Part shown: in pieces, positions 19,078-48,738 of the stretch
Position numbering within the stretch: the stretch's first letter is position 1
How the letters are laid out: each line of letters starts with the position of its first letter
Origin: a virus
DNA: 48,790 nucleotides
IMG/VR virus record: IMGVR_UViG_3300045933_000055
Span: 1-48,790 of that record
Strand: one strand, 5' to 3'
Program-made: the position numbers and the translations under genes
Notes under the pieces: model-generated
What the model was told of the DNA's origin: nothing
The model's database searches: none
The model's input: only the letters and a program-made list of their open reading frames with translations

Positions 19078-22000
19078 TGAGGTGCATCTCGATTGGTGCG
19101 TCGATCGGCAAGAGACCGTCGGGAGCGTCGCGAACCACGCCCGAACCGCCGGTGTTCCACATCTGCAGCTTGCTCAAGCGCAGCGCCCAAATCTCCGGCG
19201 CCTGCTCCGCGATCTTCAGCAGCTGTTGGATCACTTCGATCGCCGCCTTCGTGAAGCGCAGCGCGAGCTGGCTGCCAAAGGCGCTGTTCCCCTTCGGACG
19301 AATCACGTCGAGAGCGCCGACGCGAACGAGGTCGGTCACCCACTTGTCGAACTCGGTGAACTGCATGCCGGTCAGTGCCTGCAGCTCCGCGCGTGACAGC
19401 AGCCCGAACATCCGGCCGATCGTGAACGTCGCGGCCATCGGGTCGGTCAGGCCGAGGCGCACGGTCAGCATCGCTTCGAGGCGCCACATCGTCTTCGGCT
19501 CGAGGGCGACCTTCACGTTGCGCGAGACCTTCTCGTAGTCGAGCAGCTTCCAGGTGTGCTCGAGCCAGCGCGCCGCCCACTGAACGTGCACCAGCTTGAC
19601 GTGACACGTCGCGAGCCCGATCTCGGTGCTCGAAAGCGTCATGTTCGCGATCGCGATCGCGATTCGGAGCACGCTGTAGACCTTCTCTTTCTCGGTGAAC
19701 AACGGCAGCTCTTCCGAGTAGCGGTCCTTCCAGACCTTCGTGCAGAGGTTGCGCGCTTCCTCGAGCGCGTCCTCGTCGAACACGATCTGCGACGGGTCGA
19801 GGTGCCAGGCGCGGATGGCGACCGCGCGCTGCCGCTCCTGTGTCCACACGTTTTCAACATCTTCAGGGCCGAAGCCGGCTTCGATCTCGTCGATCGGCAG
19901 GCCGAAGTCGAGGCGCGCGAGAGACTCCGGCGTGCCGTAGAGCGCGAGCAGGTGCTGCGCCGGCGTCGCGAACGAGTTCTTCGAGCCGTCGAGCCAGTTG
20001 GCGATCGACACGAGGCGCACGGCCGCGGAGAGCATCATCGAGCCGCTGATCTTCGCCGCCTCCACCTTCCCGATGTCGCGCGCGCCCTGCAGCATCGGGA
20101 ACAGACCGCCCTGCGTCGCGTTGTCCTGCACCATCAGGTGCGCTTCGTCGAGGATGACGAGCTTGCCGTGGTTGCGCGGGAAGACGCCCGGCTTCGACTT
20201 GCTCTGCCCGTTGATGCTGATCGTGCCGATGGTCAGGCCTGGTCGGCTGAAGTTGCCCATCGGTGTGAAGTGCTGGCCGAAGAGCGCCTTCACGTAGGCG
20301 CGGCCGGCGGCCGACTTGCCGGTGCGCGTGGCGCCGATCAAGCAGCAGTCGATCCATGCACGGCGCCGCGCGCCGCCGACGTCCATCCAGAGCGCGCTGT
20401 GCATCGTCAGCCCGAGCGCGACGTGCATGTCGCGGCGCCCGTAGACGTGCGTGGTGTGGTTGGCGACGTCGTTCGCCCAGCGATCGAGAAACCGATCAAT
20501 CGCCTCGACGGTCACCTCTCCGGAAGGGACCTCTGCTAGCAGCGCGACGCGGTGTGGCTCGAGGGGCACGACCACCTTGTCGTCGGCTTCCAGGTGATCG
20601 CACATCAGCACCGGCGTCAGACCGTTCGCGCTCATGTAGAGCCAGCCTCGCACGAGCAGCTCGCCTGACAGCGGCGGCGCAACGTCGCTGAGGATCTCCA
20701 CCGTCCTCGCCCCTTCCTTCTCGTCGTCTTCCCTCGCCATCGCTGACCACCGCGCTCCCGGACTGCTTTCGATCGGTTGGATCTGCCATCGCTTGCAGCT
20801 GTTCGGTTTGCCTGCGATGCGTTCCATGATGTGCTTCGGGACGTTCGTGTCGGTCATCGCTGCGGCGAGCTCGGACTGCAGGCCTGCGAAGTCGATGACG
20901 CCGTTCGGTGCGATCTCCGGCAGCTTGCAGTGGTCGCAGAACTTCTGCTGCCCCATCTCGCACTTCACCGCGCACAGCTTCATCTTGATCGCCACGTCCT
21001 CGGCGACGCCGGCGACCTGACAGCGGAACTCGATGTATTCCCCGAGGTGCTCGTGCACCTTGTCGAACTGCACGCGCTTGGCCTGGCGCAGTGATCGCCG
21101 ACACTCGCCGAGCTTGTAGCGCGGCAGCTCGTCGATCGACTGCAGGCCGGCGTTGACCATGTCGCGGAGGTCGCCGCCCCATTGCTCGAGCGGCGGCAGC
21201 GTGATGGCGCGCACGGACACGGCGCAGCGGTTCATCTCGAACGCGGGCCCGATGACGTCGAGCAGGTTCTTCTTCCGCACGCGCAGCTCTGCGAGCTTCT
21301 TCTCGTCGGGCGCGAGGTCGTCGCCGAGCCCCTGGAAGACGTCGTTGTCGTAGAGCAGGTGCACGTTCTTGTTGCGCACCCAGCCCTGCACGGCGTCGGC
21401 TGGAATCGGTGCGCCGCCGCCGCCTGTCCACGTCTGCACGGCCCACTTCCTCGAGCGCAGTTGCAGGATCAGGAGCGCGGCGAGCACGTCCCATTCGCCT
21501 TCGCAGAGCAGGTAGTCGACGTCGACGTCGGTCTTCAGGTAGCTCGGCAGGAACGGCCAGAAGCCCACCGTGCGCCCCGTCTCGCCCTTGACCTTGTTCC
21601 AGCTCCACTTCGGCTGCCCGTTCAGCGGGAACGGGTCGTAGACGCGGCACCGCTTGCGGAGGCGGCCGTCGTCGGTGTGCTGCGCGAAGACGATCTTGCC
21701 GCCCCACGCGCCGATCGGGAGCTCCTCGAGCTGGTCGGGCAACCAGAAGCCGCGCTTGCGTAGAAACTCGCGGGCGATCTCCTGGTCGGGGTCCTCGAAG
21801 AGCCGCTGCTTGAAGTCGGCGAACGTCTCCTCGGTGATCTCCGGAACGTGCTTGTAGAGCTTCTTCTGCAGCGACACGCCCTCGACCTCGATGCCGACGA
21901 GCTTCGCGAGCGCCTGGCACACGAGCCACGGCTGATCGGTGCCGAGCAGCTTGCCGGTCCAGGTGAAGAGGTCGGCCTTGCTGGCGCACTGGTGGCAGCG

Positions 22001-26228: not shown

Positions 26229-26557
26229 TTGCGCCTCAATGCCTTCGACAGCGCGTTGGTGAGTCTGGTGATCTTGGTTCGCTGACGCCAACTATCCTTC
26301 AGGTGCCAGAGCAGGACGTTGCGGTGCCACAGCGAGAACTCCGTCAGGCGGCGATGGAAGTCGAGGTCTGATTCGGTCGCGTTGTTCTGTCTCGGCATGA
26401 AGGCTCGAAGACCGAGTCGGTTGAACAGCCAATCGAGCTGGTGTCGTGTTGCTTCGCGAACGGCCGTCTCGAAGTCCGGCGCGTGACGGTGCTGATGTAG
26501 TGCATCTCGGCAAGCGCCGAGTGCCTTCAGCTCAGACCACCAGAACGGAGGTCTCAC
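26225..26557 (-). CDS. Hypothetical aromatic-rich protein (110 aa)
   Basis: GTG 26557 overlaps the co-chaperonin stop. The product is rich in Trp, His and Arg (P-P-F-W-W-S-E-L-K near the start; S-L-W-H-R-N-V-L-L-W-H-L-K later) and ends in a basic tail, which suggests nucleic-acid contact. No known family identified. Confidence 0.5.
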   Translation of the reverse strand: MRPPFWWSELKALGACRDALHQHRHAPDFETAVREATRHQLDWLFNRLGLRAFMPRQNNATESDLDFHRRLTEFSLWHRNVLLWHLKDSWRQRTKITRLTNALSKALRRK

Positions 26558-26847
26558 GGGACCACCGCGAGGATGTTCGCGAAGTCGAGCAGTAAGCAGT
26601 CGCTGAACTTCGGCGCAGCCTTGAAGGCGTAGGCGACGCGATCGCCGACACCGAACGGCAGGCCGTCGTTCGCGGTCGCGGCCTTCAGCTCGTCGCCCTT
26701 GCACGGCCCGATCGCGACGATGTGTCCGAACAGGATGCCAGCCTCACCCTTCGCTTGCAGGCTGGTAGGAAGCACGATGCCGCCCTCCGTCGTGTCCTTC
26801 GGAGGTTCGGGGCGAACGAGAACGCGGTTCCAGGTTGGGCGAATCAC
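26554..26847 (-). CDS. GroES-like co-chaperonin
   Basis: GTG 26847 overlaps the helicase stop (GTGA), giving 97 residues, exactly GroES size. The sequence follows the family from end to end: I-R-P-x-x-N-R-V-L-V at 2-11, the mobile-loop G-G-I-V-L-P at 22-27, G-x-I-V-A-I-G-P at 41-48, G-V-G-D-R-V-A-Y at 66-73, and the closing I-L-A-V-V at 92-96. Co-chaperonins cap GroEL; phage versions such as T4 gp31 adapt the host chamber to fold capsid protein. No GroEL is encoded here, so it should work with host GroEL. Placement in the replication operon would supply it before the late structural genes are expressed. Confidence 0.85.
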   Translation of the reverse strand: MIRPTWNRVLVRPEPPKDTTEGGIVLPTSLQAKGEAGILFGHIVAIGPCKGDELKAATANDGLPFGVGDRVAYAFKAAPKFSDCLLLDFANILAVVP

Positions 26848-28763
26848 AGTGCCTCGAGCAGTTCGCGGAGCGTGACGACCTTGAGAGCTTGCTGCGCGTC
26901 CGCGTCCTTCGCAGCGAGCTTCTTCTCGATGAACTTCTCGACCGAGTTGGTGACGATCGGGATCTGCACGTTGACGGTGCCCTTCGAGCCGATGCGATGG
27001 CACCGTGCTTCCGCTTGGGCGTTGATCGCTGGCGACCAGTCACGACCGAGGAACAACACGTCGCTCGCGTTGGTCAGGTTGAAGCCTTCTGCCAGCTTCA
27101 CCTGCACGAGCATCACGCGGTGCTGTCCCTTGCGGAAGGCGTCGATGGCTTCCTGGCGCGCGATCGTGTCCATCGAGCCGATCAGCTTGCAGGCACCGCC
27201 TTGCGTGCTAAACTTGTTCTCGAGCCACAGAATCGGCGCGTTGAAGCGAGAGAACACGACGACTTGGCGATCGCGCAGCTCGTGCTCGACCGTTTCGATC
27301 AGCCACGCCATCTTCGGCGAGTCGGGGAAGACGAAGGCGTTCGGGTAGCCGTCGACGCGCTCGGCCTTGCCAGCGATCAGCGGCGCGACCTTCTCTGCGT
27401 ATTGCTCTGGCAGCCCGGACAGGAAGCCTTGCGCGATCATCTCGCAGCGCATCGCCGCTTCGACTGCGCTGCGCGCGAGCGGGTGCCACATCGAGGTTGC
27501 CTCAGCGATCACCTCGCTTTCGGGATCACCCTGCTTCGCCGACAAGCCGATCAGCTTCTCGAGCTCGACGCGGGCGAAGTCCTTCATCTGCCGGTAGACG
27601 TCGAGGTGCAGGCCGTCGAGCTCGATCTGCGGCTTGGTCCTCAACAGCGGCGGTAGCGTCAGGACGTCTTCCTTCTTCCTGCCGATGCGCAGCGTGTTGA
27701 CGACGCGGTTCAGCTCTTCGAGGTTCTTGCCACCGCGCACGACATTGACCGGCCGCTTGTTGTTGCCGAACGTCGCCTGCGAGATCACGAGGTGTCGATT
27801 CGCGAAGTCGTGGTAGCTGACCCAGGTGCCGGGTCGCAACAGCTCGATCTGCGCGAACAGGTCTTCGACCGTGTTGCGAACAGGCGTGCCGGTCAGGCCA
27901 AGTCGCAGCGCAGCTGCCGACATCAGCGCCTGCACCGCCTTCGTTCGCTTCGAGTCGCGGTCCTTGCAGTAGTGGAACTCGTCGCCGATCACGCACTGCC
28001 CGTTGCACCATGCCTCGAGCGTGCGCCAAGCCACCTCGTTCATCGAGCGCAGGAGATCGTAGTTGACGATCGCGATGCCGAGATCGTTCGCGTCGATCGT
28101 GGCGCGCATGTATCCGAGCACGTTCGAGCGGTTCGCTGGCGTGCCGTCGATCAGGAACTGCAAGGCGACGGTCTTCCCCGGAATCTGTGTGTCCTGCACG
28201 CCGTAGCAGGCCTGCACCTCTTCGAGCCAGTTGAGCTTCACGCTCTTCGGGCAGATCACGAGTGCACGGCGGCCGGCGCCGGCGAGCCAGCTCAGGATCG
28301 CCGTGGTGGTCTTGCCGAGACCCATGTCGTCGGTCAGCAGCGCCTGCCCCCCTTGCTCCGCCAGGGCTCGCAGCGCCTGCGTCTGGTGCGGCATCGGCAG
28401 CCGGCCGCCCGACGCCGCCTGCCACGCGGCGCCCGCGTCGCCGGGACGCTGCAGCGCCTGCTCGCGGCGTTGGTAGCCGGCCACCTGCCGGTCGGCCCAC
28501 GCCCGCGCTTCGGGTGCCCAGGCGACCTCGAGCCGGGCGGCGAGCAGCGGCTGCAGGGCAGCCAGCCACGCGCGCGCCTGGTAGCGGCTGCACGGCTGCC
28601 CGTTGTGCACGCCCAGCTGCGGGCACCGGCGCCAGCCTGCCCACGCGGAGACGGTCTTGTGCAAGCTGTCGTTGCCGCGTGGGTCACCGCCTTCGAGCTC
28701 GAGCCAGAACTCGGTCCCTGCAGGCGAGGCACGGCAGACCAGCAAGACGCGGACTTGACTCAT
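26844..28763 (-). CDS. SNF2-family DEAD/H helicase
   Basis: ATG 28763 is chosen, giving 639 residues. The first ~120 residues are a variable N-terminus. The helicase core has Walker A D-D-M-G-L-G-K-T-T (145-153, Lys151), a DEAD-box variant D-E-F-H (261-264), motif III L-T-G-T-P-V-R-N, and in the second lobe V-V-V-F-S-R-F and motif VI Q-A-E-A-R-C-H-R-I-G-S. These define an SNF2-like ATPase that translocates on duplex DNA. In phages such enzymes assist replication, recombination or removal of bound proteins. It opens the operon that ends at 17.6 kb and has its own candidate promoter. Confidence 0.85.
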   Translation of the reverse strand: MSQVRVLLVCRASPAGTEFWLELEGGDPRGNDSLHKTVSAWAGWRRCPQLGVHNGQPCSRYQARAWLAALQPLLAARLEVAWAPEARAWADRQVAGYQRREQALQRPGDAGAAWQAASGGRLPMPHQTQALRALAEQGGQALLTDDMGLGKTTTAILSWLAGAGRRALVICPKSVKLNWLEEVQACYGVQDTQIPGKTVALQFLIDGTPANRSNVLGYMRATIDANDLGIAIVNYDLLRSMNEVAWRTLEAWCNGQCVIGDEFHYCKDRDSKRTKAVQALMSAAALRLGLTGTPVRNTVEDLFAQIELLRPGTWVSYHDFANRHLVISQATFGNNKRPVNVVRGGKNLEELNRVVNTLRIGRKKEDVLTLPPLLRTKPQIELDGLHLDVYRQMKDFARVELEKLIGLSAKQGDPESEVIAEATSMWHPLARSAVEAAMRCEMIAQGFLSGLPEQYAEKVAPLIAGKAERVDGYPNAFVFPDSPKMAWLIETVEHELRDRQVVVFSRFNAPILWLENKFSTQGGACKLIGSMDTIARQEAIDAFRKGQHRVMLVQVKLAEGFNLTNASDVLFLGRDWSPAINAQAEARCHRIGSKGTVNVQIPIVTNSVEKFIEKKLAAKDADAQQALKVVTLRELLEAL

Positions 28764-28825
28764 GCACCACACTCACGAAGGGCTCGCCTCGCAACAGCGG
28801 GGCTCGCGAAACTCGGAGGGGCGCG

Positions 28826-28855
28826 CTTCTACTGGAAGGCTCGCGCTTGCGTCAA
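28826..28855 (-). promoter_or_regulatory. Candidate sigma70-like promoter for the helicase operon
   Basis: On the minus strand TTGACG (28855-28850) and TAGAAG (28831-28826) are separated by 18 bases, giving a predicted start about 56 bases before the helicase ATG. It lies just downstream of the multibranched terminator. The -10 box is imperfect. Confidence 0.35.
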
Positions 28856-28866
28856 GCGAGGTCGAA

Positions 28867-28938
28867 GAAAAACATCGGCCCCGGTGCCTGCAGTTTAGTG
28901 CAGGCGATGCGGGAGTCACCCGCACCATACCGGGGCCG
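28867..28938 (-). terminator. Multibranched (three-way junction) terminator-like RNA
   Basis: A perfect 10-bp stem (28876-28885 with 28929-28938) encloses two perfect hairpins: 7 bp (28886-28892/28899-28905, 6-base loop) and 6 bp (28908-28913/28919-28924, 5-base loop). On the minus strand the closing stem is followed after a few bases by TTTTT (28872-28868). It lies between the 28956 gene and the helicase operon. It is either a composite terminator or a structured leader or small RNA. The 7-bp arm contains one copy of the CTGCAG dyad. Confidence 0.65.
28888..28903. promoter_or_regulatory. CTGCAG-type dyad, copy 3 (candidate operator)
   Basis: CTGCAGTTTAGTGCAG matches the perfect palindrome at 33180 at 14 of 16 positions, and, like the other copies, lies outside genes. 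It also forms part of the second hairpin of the multibranched structure. Confidence 0.4.
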
Positions 28939-28955
28939 ACGGACCGCTGCGCTTG

Positions 28956-29702
28956 CTACTGACCGGGCGCAGCGTTCTCGGAAGACGGACAGTGTGCCGC
29001 AACAGGTGCAGGCACGCGCACCTTGAACAGCTCGAGGATCTTTCTGGCAAGCCCCGTCGCATCCTTGTCGAACGCCACGGCCTCGGTGCACAGAACGATC
29101 GCCTGCTCGACAGGGTCGGCCTTCGTGCCGTAGATCGGCATGAAGACGCCGACGTTGCCATCCTTGCGCACAATGATTGGCTTGCGCGTGTCCTGAGGGA
29201 TCTCGAAGGCTGGCATGCCTTGCACCTCGCCAGAAGGATAGACCGCGTCCATGCAGGACTTCGCGTGGTCCACCTTGAACATCAGCTGCATCGTGTCGCA
29301 ACGGTCAAACTCGTCAGCGAGGATGCGCTCGCAGAAGTCAGCCAGGCGTGGATCGTTGTCGATGCGCACCGGATGCATCGCACCGTTGTAGACGCGAAGA
29401 AACCAGCTGTCGCCTTGCCGCTCGAGGCAGAACGGAGCCTTGGCTTTGCGCAGCGCCTTGTAGACGTCGCGCGTCAGCATGACGCCGCACACTGCAGGAT
29501 CGAAGCCTGCATGGTTCAGCAGCGCCGCCATGTTCGCAACCTCTTCGTTGCTCGTGTCGACGATCAGGCATGCAAACTTCTCGCGATCGGTCGCGTAGAG
29601 TCGCAGCTTGCCCGTTCGATACGCGATGACCATCTCGGGGAACCCGCCTCGGTCATCGTCTTCGCAGGTGAAGCGTTCCACGTTTCCAGGTGGCAGCCTC
29701 AT
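28956..29702 (-). CDS. Hypothetical protein (248 aa), weak clamp-like pattern
   Basis: ATG 29702 follows GAGGTG by 5 bases and overlaps the previous stop (ATGA). The sequence alternates strands and helices; L-R-L-Y-A-T-D-R-E-K-F-A-C-L-I-V-D-T faintly recalls the A-T-D-x-x-R/K segment of beta-clamp folds, but this is not enough to call one. The C-terminal ~20 residues are a Pro/Ala-rich tail. It is the last gene before the multibranched terminator. Confidence 0.5.
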   Translation of the reverse strand: MRLPPGNVERFTCEDDDRGGFPEMVIAYRTGKLRLYATDREKFACLIVDTSNEEVANMAALLNHAGFDPAVCGVMLTRDVYKALRKAKAPFCLERQGDSWFLRVYNGAMHPVRIDNDPRLADFCERILADEFDRCDTMQLMFKVDHAKSCMDAVYPSGEVQGMPAFEIPQDTRKPIIVRKDGNVGVFMPIYGTKADPVEQAIVLCTEAVAFDKDATGLARKILELFKVRVPAPVAAHCPSSENAAPGQ

Positions 29703-30076
29703 GCTTCACCTCGCATGTGCATCGTCTCGTCGTCGGCTCGCTTCTGCGCGCTGCAGCGGTTCCTTCCGGTGTCGATGAAGACTTGCGCGCAGGTGCTGTG
29801 CCCGCAGATTGGGCCTCGAGCGTGCGTTGTCCGATCAGCTCGATCGGCATGGTGGATCGGGTGCAGCGTCCATTCCTCGCCTAGCTTCTCGCGAAACTCG
29901 TCGATCGCCGCTTGTCCGTGTTCCCTGCACGTCGCTTGAATCGCGAGGCCTTCAGGACAGACAAGCCAGTCCTTCGCGTTGAAGTAGCGCGCTCGCTTCT
30001 GGTTCGCGCAAGTGTGGCACGCATACGGGATGTCCGGCGGTTGCGTGCGAACATCGAGGATGTGAGTATGCGCCAC
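29699..30076 (-). CDS. Hypothetical cysteine-rich protein (125 aa)
   Basis: GTG start at 30076. C-H-T-C at 20-23, with later cysteines near 40 and 50, could form one metal site, and C-G-H-S-T-C at 91-96 another. Histidine-rich spacers (H-P-I-H-H-A-D) are consistent with metal binding. No family is recognised. Confidence 0.5.
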   Translation of the reverse strand: MAHTHILDVRTQPPDIPYACHTCANQKRARYFNAKDWLVCPEGLAIQATCREHGQAAIDEFREKLGEEWTLHPIHHADRADRTTHARGPICGHSTCAQVFIDTGRNRCSAQKRADDETMHMRGEA

Positions 30077-30079
30077 GGT

Positions 30080-30496
30080 TCACCGCTCACGTGGCAGCAT
30101 GAGAACGAAACCGTTCGTGCCTGGCTCGATCTCGCCAGCTTCGCAAAACAGCTTGAACGGCAACAGCTCGCGCGGGAAGTCAGAGTATTCCAGCTTCTGC
30201 TGCACAATGATCGGCGAAGCGTCGTTGCCGTCCGTGCAGACGAGCAGCGCCCCGTTCACTCCGACCGGGGTCAGCTCCCAACACTGGAACGGTTGCGCCT
30301 GCACCTTCTTCGAGGTCGCGACGTAGCTCGCGATTGCGTCGACAAGCCAGAAGGCGCCGCACGTCTGCGCGACGAACAGAACGCCATCGGTGTAGAGCAT
30401 GCGCCTGGCTAGCGCATGACGGTGGAAGGTCGCCGAGCCGTTGCATTCGGCGATGTAACTGCGAACGGTGTTCGCTTTCTCGTTGTCGGTCAGCAT
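30080..30496 (-). CDS. DUF6876-like protein
   Basis: ATG 30496, eight bases after AAGGA, gives 138 residues; an in-frame ATG at 30505 is possible. Y-T-D-G-V-L-F-V-A-Q-T-C-G-A-F-W-L-V-D-A-I-A-S-Y, then P-F-Q-C-W-E-L and C-T-D-G-N, match the pattern I recall for DUF6876, a small family of unknown function common in phages and plasmids. It lies just after a multibranched terminator-like element and may start a separate transcript. Confidence 0.55.
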   Translation of the reverse strand: MLTDNEKANTVRSYIAECNGSATFHRHALARRMLYTDGVLFVAQTCGAFWLVDAIASYVATSKKVQAQPFQCWELTPVGVNGALLVCTDGNDASPIIVQQKLEYSDFPRELLPFKLFCEAGEIEPGTNGFVLMLPRER

Positions 30497-30540
30497 CAGT
30501 AGCATCCTTGCGAGGTAACTAAACTCGCGTCGGGGGTAGG

Positions 30541-30623
30541 AAAAAGTGACAGCGGGCAGACATCGGGAAAAGGGGAAGAAGGAGAGTCATGCCTTTACGT
30601 CGCGTTGCGCGACAACCGCTGTC
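30541..30623 (-). terminator. Second multibranched terminator-like element
   Basis: On the minus strand GACAGCGG (30623-30616) pairs with CCGCTGTC (30555-30548) and is followed within two bases by TTTTT (30545-30541). Inside lies a perfect 6-bp hairpin, GTCGCG-CAA-CGCGAC (30613-30599). The closing stem spans about 60 bases, so folding is less certain than at 28.9 kb, but the plan is similar. Confidence 0.35.
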
Positions 30624-30629
30624 GGTGTG

Positions 30630-30833
30630 CTATTCGCCTCGTGCTTCGGCCTCGTCAGCTTGGTAGAGCAACGCATCCCATTCGGCCGCCGTCACGTTCG
30701 GCCTCGAGCGTTGCACGAACAGAAGGACGCAGGCGTAAGTGAAGCCGCGCGCTCGCATCGCATCGACCAGTCGCGCAGCATGATAAGGGCTCACCTGATC
30801 TACAGCCAGGTTCGCACGTTCGCGCAGCTTCAT
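30630..30833 (-). CDS. Hypothetical 67-residue protein
   Basis: The product is helical (A-A-R-L-V-D-A-M-R-A-R-G-F and A-A-E-W-D-A-L-L-Y-Q-A-D-E-A-E). It starts in an ATGA overlap and is the last gene before the 30.5-kb gap. Confidence 0.5.
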   Translation of the reverse strand: MKLRERANLAVDQVSPYHAARLVDAMRARGFTYACVLLFVQRSRPNVTAAEWDALLYQADEAEARGE

Positions 30834-31063
30834 GCGTCTTTCACCTCGACAAGGACAACGACGCTGCCAGTGTCGTATTGCTTCACCGTGCTACTCGCGA
30901 CCTTTCCAGCGAACCGATCGGTATCGGAAACGATGTCGACCTTCGTGCCGCTGTCGGTGCGCTCGATGTAGATCGTGCATCCTGGCGCTTCGATCCGGAT
31001 CGTCTTTCTTCCGAGGTCGACACGCTTGCAATCCAAGCCTAGACGTTTCGGTGACCGGGTCAT
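30830..31063 (-). CDS. Hypothetical 77-residue protein
   Basis: A beta-rich pattern (K-T-I-R-I-E-A-P-G-C-T-I-Y-I-E, V-D-I-V-S-D, S-V-V-V-L-V-E-V) follows a basic N-terminus. It is coupled at both ends by ATGA overlaps. No family is recognised. Confidence 0.5.
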   Translation of the reverse strand: MTRSPKRLGLDCKRVDLGRKTIRIEAPGCTIYIERTDSGTKVDIVSDTDRFAGKVASSTVKQYDTGSVVVLVEVKDA

Positions 31064-47706: not shown

Positions 47707-48738
47707 ATGAGCAGCTTCGTTGGCGACACCGCCATCCTCTCCACGTTCGACGTCGAACGCGGCAACCGCGAGGATCTCCTCGACGTCATCACGAACATCT
47801 CGCCGATGGACACGCTGATGCTGTCCAACCTCGAGAAGGTTCCCGCCAGCAACACGACCCACGAGTGGCTCGTCGACATCCTCGCCGACTTCGGCGATCC
47901 GGACGTTGGCAACGCCGACGTGCAGGCCGTGGCCGAAGGCTCGGATGCGACCTTCGATCCCCTCGTGCCGCGCAAGCGGCTCTGCAACCTCACGCACATC
48001 ATCCGCCGCACGTTCGACGTGTCGGACACGCAGCGTGACGTCAACACCGCCGGCATCCGCGACGAATACGTCTACCAGATGCGCAAGGCGGCGATGGAGC
48101 TCGCTCGCTTCATCGAGTTCGCGATCGTGCACAGCCAGCGCCAGTTCCAGACGGCGCAGGGCAACTCGATCGGCGTGCTGCCGCGCAAGATGGACGGCTT
48201 CTACGCCTTCGCCGCCGCCCAGGACCCGACGTGCGTGACGACGCTCGGTCTCTCCGAAGAGGAGATGGGCACCGTCACCACCGTCGCCGGCTCGAGCCCC
48301 GTGAACTGCATCGACGAGTGCGTGCTCAACGCGCACCTCGAAGCGATGTGGGAGAAGGGCGCGATGACCGACACGCTGTGGGTCAACGCCGCGCAGAAGC
48401 GGTCGATCTCGAACCTCGTGCTGAACCCGAACAGCCAGGTCCGCTACAACATCAACGTCGCGGAGCGCACCGTCATCAACACGGTCGACTTCTACCAGAG
48501 CGACTTCGGGACGCAGCGGGTCTTCCTGCACCGCTACCAGGCGAACGATCGCATCGCGACCGCGGAGTCCAACAAGATCCGCGTCGCCGTGCTCCGTCCC
48601 GTCCTGGCGGTCGAGCTGGCGAAGATCGGCTCGAGCACGAAGGGCATGATGGAGTGGGAGGGCACGCTCGAGGTGCTCGCCCCGAACGCCATCGGCTACA
48701 TTGATAGCTTGTGCACCGGAGTTGCCGGCTGCCCCTGA
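47707..48738 (+). CDS. Major capsid protein (SU10/DUF5309 type)
   Basis: The complete 343-residue copy starts at ATG 47707. Segments T-N-I-S-P-M-D-T-L-M-L-S, H-E-W-L-V-D, A-V-A-E-G-S-D-A-T-F, R-L-C-N-L-T-H-I and M-R-K-A-A-M-E-L-A-R-F-I-E follow the order I recall for the SU10 major capsid (DUF5309) family of HK97-fold proteins. Length also fits. It follows the scaffold gene and lies in the main late operon. The last 61 codons fall in the repeated contig end. Confidence 0.75.
   Translation: MSSFVGDTAILSTFDVERGNREDLLDVITNISPMDTLMLSNLEKVPASNTTHEWLVDILADFGDPDVGNADVQAVAEGSDATFDPLVPRKRLCNLTHIIRRTFDVSDTQRDVNTAGIRDEYVYQMRKAAMELARFIEFAIVHSQRQFQTAQGNSIGVLPRKMDGFYAFAAAQDPTCVTTLGLSEEEMGTVTTVAGSSPVNCIDECVLNAHLEAMWEKGAMTDTLWVNAAQKRSISNLVLNPNSQVRYNINVAERTVINTVDFYQSDFGTQRVFLHRYQANDRIATAESNKIRVAVLRPVLAVELAKIGSSTKGMMEWEGTLEVLAPNAIGYIDSLCTGVAGCP

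Follow-up and report, generated by a model that had tools for sequence, protein, structure and literature searches.

What does a strongly folded RNA segment do between two leftward operons of an uncultured phage? The window, by which we mean the whole 48,790-bp stretch of DNA analyzed, is an uncultured phage record of 65% GC whose gene products include a phage large terminase, a portal, a major head protein, internal virion proteins, and an SNF2 helicase. An initial annotation had described three nested stems of 10, 7, and 6 bp followed by TTTTT on the transcribed strand and had placed them between two leftward operons. The fold and its location both held up: the structure, here called element 1, occupies positions 28941-28868 of the minus strand, between a 248-aa ORF (29702-28956; stop codon TAG at 28958-28956) and the helicase gene (28763-26844). 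The three stems were real, but their lengths had been given slightly short and come to 13, 8, and 7 bp with G-U pairs included. The features of this region are as follows.

28956..29702, minus strand: upstream gene, 248 aa, no Pfam or PHROG match; ends 15 nt before P1 of element 1
28929..28941, minus strand: element 1 P1, 5′ strand CGUCGGCCCCGGU; from the fold, 13/13 letters the same in the relative G001
28906..28926, minus strand: element 1 P2 hairpin GGUGCGGG-UGACU-CCCGCAUC; from the fold and the G001 comparison
28886..28905, minus strand: element 1 P3 hairpin GCCUGCA-CUAAAC-UGCAGGC; from the fold and the G001 comparison
28873..28885, minus strand: element 1 P1, 3′ strand ACCGGGGCCGAUG; from the fold, G001 differs at the first letter only (U-A to U-G)
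28868..28872, minus strand: element 1 U-tract UUUUU, directly 3′ of P1; UUUUUU in G001
28850..28855, minus strand: -35-like TTGACG after the U-tract, putative helicase-operon promoter
26844..28763, minus strand: downstream gene, SNF2-family helicase, 639 aa (SNF2-rel_dom, 1.8e-23)

A further minus-strand ORF (26554-27003) overlaps the 3′ end of the helicase gene and matches the GroES co-chaperonin (phrog_3188, 7e-8).

In element 1, the P1 stem surrounds two hairpins, P2 and P3, and is followed by UUUUU without a gap. P1 (28941-28929/28885-28873) comprises 11 Watson-Crick pairs, one G-U pair, and one outer C-G pair, and two unpaired bases separate it from P2. The P2 stem (28926-28919/28913-28906) has 8 bp, one of them G-U, and the loop UGACU; the P3 stem (28905-28899/28892-28886) has 7 bp and the loop CUAAAC. 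The MFE of a 91-base segment was -57.6 kcal/mol (z of -7.65), and the MFE structure made up 70% of the ensemble and was identical to the centroid. The 69-nt core gave a z of -8.1, and its G001 counterpart gave -8.2. The plus strand folds too (z of -6.1), but without a U-tract after the fold. Two-hairpin junctions with outer and inner stems of at least 6 bp (Watson-Crick pairs only) occurred at one place in the 48.8-kb window; 40 dinucleotide shuffles of the window yielded three such junctions with an outer stem of at least 6 bp and none with at least 9 bp. TTTTT occurs twice on the minus strand of the window (28872 and 30545), once after element 1 and once after a second three-way junction that the initial annotation had missed (30623-30541; element 2). 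Rfam 15 covariance models gave no match in the window at the gathering score and none in 28500-31000 at E≤5.

The same structure was present at the equivalent place in G001, a single IMG/VR contig found via its helicase, which is 83% identical to that of the window. Over all pairs, the comparison showed six double-sided changes, two single-sided changes, and no broken pair. Four P2 pairs had changed at both positions and a fifth at only one, with none broken, and P3 in G001 reads GCCAUGCA-CUAAAC-UGCAUGGC, which amounts to two double changes or, equivalently, one inserted A-U pair. P1 was unchanged save for the inner closing pair (U-A to U-G), and because it hardly varies, P1 itself has almost no covariation support. 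All 18 of the P2 and P3 pairs were kept (18/18), an outcome that none of 20,000 shuffled sets of 3′ strands produced, and neither loop, UGACU or CUAAAC, differed. The pattern GTGACT..CACTAAACTG gave many chance matches in viral and bacterial collections, with the fold only in the window and G001, and a search for CTAAAC- and UGACU-loop hairpins in the 3.3 Mb of loci examined returned nothing besides G001. Covariation in relatives, proposed earlier as a check, was thus found as compensatory change, but in one relative only. Since G001 was the only homologue found, the covariation is a single comparison; it provides good evidence for the predicted structure, from one comparison and no more.

The same operon junction in other relatives bears on the function of this structure. 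Upstream of the helicase, simple hairpins were seen in G004 (GGACCCTCCCGCC..GGCGGGAGGGTCC-TTTTT) and G023 (GCCTCGCATTCGAAGTGCGAGGC-TTTTCTTTTT), and a stem with an internal hairpin in G022 (AGCCCGTGAAG..CTTCACGGGCT-GTTTTTTTT, with U8). No terminator was found upstream of the homologous helicase of G009, whose protein, like that of G004, is 45-46% identical to that of the window; termination at the helicase junction is therefore not obligatory. That unrelated terminators replace one another at this junction is the main evidence for element 1 as a terminator. At the place equivalent to the -35-like TTGACG, TTGAC or TTGAA was present in G001, G004, G009, G022, and G023 (six genomes with the window), but no clear -10 box was seen. 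A simple promoter scan of the window called no promoter there, and the -10 box differs between the window and G001; because this box is not conserved, the helicase promoter is only probable. The position of the -35-like TTGAC after the U-tract suggests that the helicase mRNA probably starts downstream of the U-tract.

Other structured or repetitive stretches were seen in these loci. About 235 nt of noncoding DNA just upstream of the helicase are highly conserved between G022 and G023 (approximately L242:3630-3857 and L243:3370-3610), with diverged flanks, and end in a stem with U7-8; the stretch gave no convincing Rfam match and is possibly another phage noncoding RNA. G018 carries a 424-bp GGTCCN hexamer array that immediately precedes the matched portion of its helicase gene (L345:2271-2694). 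In G006 (L239:944-1048), a strong palindromic structure of four hairpins contains C10/G10 runs, has an outer stem of 11 bp, and can be read on either strand.

We consider it likely that transcription of the upstream leftward operon ends at element 1, which would be an intrinsic terminator with a branched hairpin. RNA polymerase moving leftward out of the 248-aa gene would transcribe the 13-bp GC-rich P1, whose apical part consists of two perfect hairpins; closure of P1 just before UUUUU would release the transcript, and the SNF2-helicase operon would restart from the putative TTGAC promoter a few bases past the U-tract. Termination in vivo is what we infer from the features seen in the sequence, namely, the fold with its GC-rich stem abutting the U-tract, the strand, the operon boundary, the compensatory changes in G001, and the hairpin terminators of relatives; the same features uphold the composite terminator, one of three roles offered in the initial annotation. 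Like other intrinsic (Rho-independent) terminators, element 1 has a GC-rich stem followed by a U-tract at a gene end and on one strand, here where a minus-strand transcription unit ends, but two conserved hairpins stand in place of the apical loop and form a three-way junction. A full-text literature search returned no named class of branched three-way-junction terminators in phages. The inner hairpins may help P1 zip up faster or shield the 3′ end, and the conserved loops could likewise serve 3′-end protection or bind some partner; the intact loops are not accounted for by termination alone. Element 1 would represent a clear natural example of branching in an intrinsic terminator hairpin, with compensatory changes preserving the branches. 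Scanners limited to terminators with short loops overlook element 1, as happened here.

Because both loops are unchanged in G001, a stable RNA or a loop-binding partner is possible, as had also been suggested initially. Here the terminator would give rise to a stable 3′-UTR-derived small RNA whose branched fold accumulates after termination or processing and whose loops bind a partner, a reading compatible with termination except that the RNA would be the product. We regard it as unlikely. The loops are identical while the P2 and P3 stems change, and the 21 unchanged letters around both loops have a chance of about 0.4% at the regional identity of 77%, but these figures come from two sequences only, and short loops are perhaps kept just for fast folding. 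The nearby element 2, of similar shape, has a loop clearly under strong selection. No loop-loop complementarity was visible by eye.

Far less probable is a ligand- or protein-sensing leader, that is, an attenuator of the helicase operon, a role from the initial annotation that is not supported. Element 1 does precede the helicase, and a terminator stem is part of it, but its one dominant conformation comes with no alternative antiterminator conformation, no relatives were found past G001, and Rfam gave no match; moreover, the U-tract is followed by the putative promoter, and other phages carry plain terminators at this place. Least credible is a DNA-level element, either an operator dyad around CTGCAG or a cruciform: long perfect inverted repeats are present as DNA too, but the CTGCAG dyad, although present as first described, is not conserved in G001 (CTGCATGG) and so carries no weight as an operator, the P2 changes use G-U pairs, which fits RNA, and the U-tract is on one strand only.

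Element 2 lies about 1.7 kb upstream of the terminator candidate, two genes away. It is a three-way junction followed by a U-tract and precedes a DUF6876 gene. Its parts are as follows.

30616..30623, minus strand: element 2 P1, 5′ strand GACAGCGG; from the fold and structural alignment
30599..30613, minus strand: element 2 P2 hairpin GUCGCG-CAA-CGCGAC; from the fold and structural alignment
30558..30594, minus strand: element 2 P3 hairpin; conserved pyrimidine loop GACUCUCCUUCUUCCCCUUUUCCCG at 30588-30564; from matches to a 17-mer core
30548..30555, minus strand: element 2 P1, 3′ strand CCGCUGUC; from the fold and structural alignment
30541..30545, minus strand: element 2 U-tract UUUUU; the second of the two minus-strand TTTTT in the window

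A common TGACTC had raised the idea that element 1 belongs to the same family as element 2. Both covariance models, R1 and R2, ruled this out: their sole match in the window was 30630-30541, even at E≤10, and element 1 was unmatched. As far as can be demonstrated, the two elements have in common their shape, a U-tract, and a position at an operon junction, not descent.

The 17-base core GACTCTCCTTCTTCCCC matched 18 viral contigs. The fold was present in 13 distinct ones, which with the window gives a family of at least 14 contigs in several unrelated phage lineages (copies at 30623-30541 on the minus strand of the window, at 20907-20990 in G001, and in loci L339-L350); the 17-mer matches in L325, L334, L336, and L338 were not member-like, and L335 duplicates L323. 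Ten members, including the window, have the three-way junction, three (G014, G016, and G019) have a long hairpin instead, and a third architecture with an extra hairpin after the loop was seen in G015 and probably also in L354. A model built from three sequences recovered the ten three-way members at E≤1e-10 and four others at 1e-7 to 5e-5. In the structural alignment, 95.4% of cells pair compared to 61% in shuffles, 20/20 pairs change on both sides somewhere, and the covariation score is 0.502 versus 0.127 ± 0.020 (≤0.109 with partners slid), figures that are somewhat inflated because the alignment was fitted to the structure. The stems were already visible in single-sequence folds, before any model.

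Contigs searched whole held one copy each; G019 has a second match, with one mismatch, to a 15-base probe. Element 2 often begins right after the stop codon of a gene, with an (R)CACACC-like leader, and often ends near the start of the next co-directional gene, and in most members a short T-rich tract follows P1. The flanking genes differ between lineages, and no partner gene common to all carriers was found among the genes called. Rfam 15 gave no match to element 2 in the window or in six other carriers, 50,697 cultured-phage records gave only weak partial matches (E of about 1 or worse), and plasmids gave none; the 17-mer was absent from 1,190 bacterial genomes sampled from three phyla, and the loop string was not found in the phage literature. 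These data strongly support element 2 as a new phage RNA family with an invariant loop, GACUCUCCUUCUUCCCC, on covarying stems in three architectures. Constancy of the loop was sought by exact patterns, so diverged loops would be missed, and in G018 the 3′ part of the loop is already different. As the larger result of this analysis, element 2 would constitute a structure-validated family of RNAs from several lineages of uncultured phages.

The stems vary, and the architecture does too, yet the pyrimidine loop is kept, which makes this loop the probable working part of element 2. Its sequence resembles an anti-Shine-Dalgarno tract. The conserved loop occurs in unrelated carriers that have no partner gene in common; this points to a host target common to them and hence to a directly testable phage-host RNA interaction, and element 2 may act in trans as an anti-Shine-Dalgarno-like or decoy RNA. 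On balance, we lean toward the view that it founds a new class of phage RNA with a 17-25-nt loop, GACUCUCCUUCUUCCCC(UUUUCCC), on stems of free sequence. Such an RNA would be self-contained and horizontally spread, and its trans action would be on a conserved molecule of the host: it could, for example, pair with purine tracts resembling Shine-Dalgarno sequences or sequester a host protein that binds pyrimidines, the latter being the main alternative to anti-Shine-Dalgarno pairing. A role as antisense RNA to its own phage was rejected, as no complementary site of more than 14 bases was common to the carriers.

Two known kinds of RNA invite comparison. The alpha-r14 or "cuckoo" sRNAs (NfeR1) of Alphaproteobacteria have an ultraconserved unpaired pyrimidine anti-Shine-Dalgarno motif and highly variable stems (PMC10746234), and element 2 likewise has an ultraconserved pyrimidine loop motif on variable stems. 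In alpha-r14, however, the motif CCUCCUCCC occurs in three hairpins, whereas the phage-borne element 2 has one copy of a single longer loop, GACUCUCCUUCUUCCCC, which places it outside that family. The c4 antisense RNA of phages P1 and P7 is a phage-encoded regulator believed to expose complementary sequence in its loops (PMC12197685). Element 2 resembles it as a phage-encoded RNA with sequence presented in loops, but c4 targets the ant mRNA of its own phage, whereas no long stretch complementary to element 2 is present in its own phage, and its carriers are unrelated phages.

Two further observations concern the window as a whole. An exact 105-bp direct repeat lies close to both ends (1-105 and 48558-48662), with likeness at the protein level reaching about 175/48732, and represents either terminal redundancy or an assembly overlap inside the major head protein gene. 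Identity between the window and G001 is 97-100% across the virion half (about 38.7-48.8 kb and 1-3 kb) but only about 71-85% across the early half (24-38 kb), with a sharp mosaic boundary near the terminase gene.
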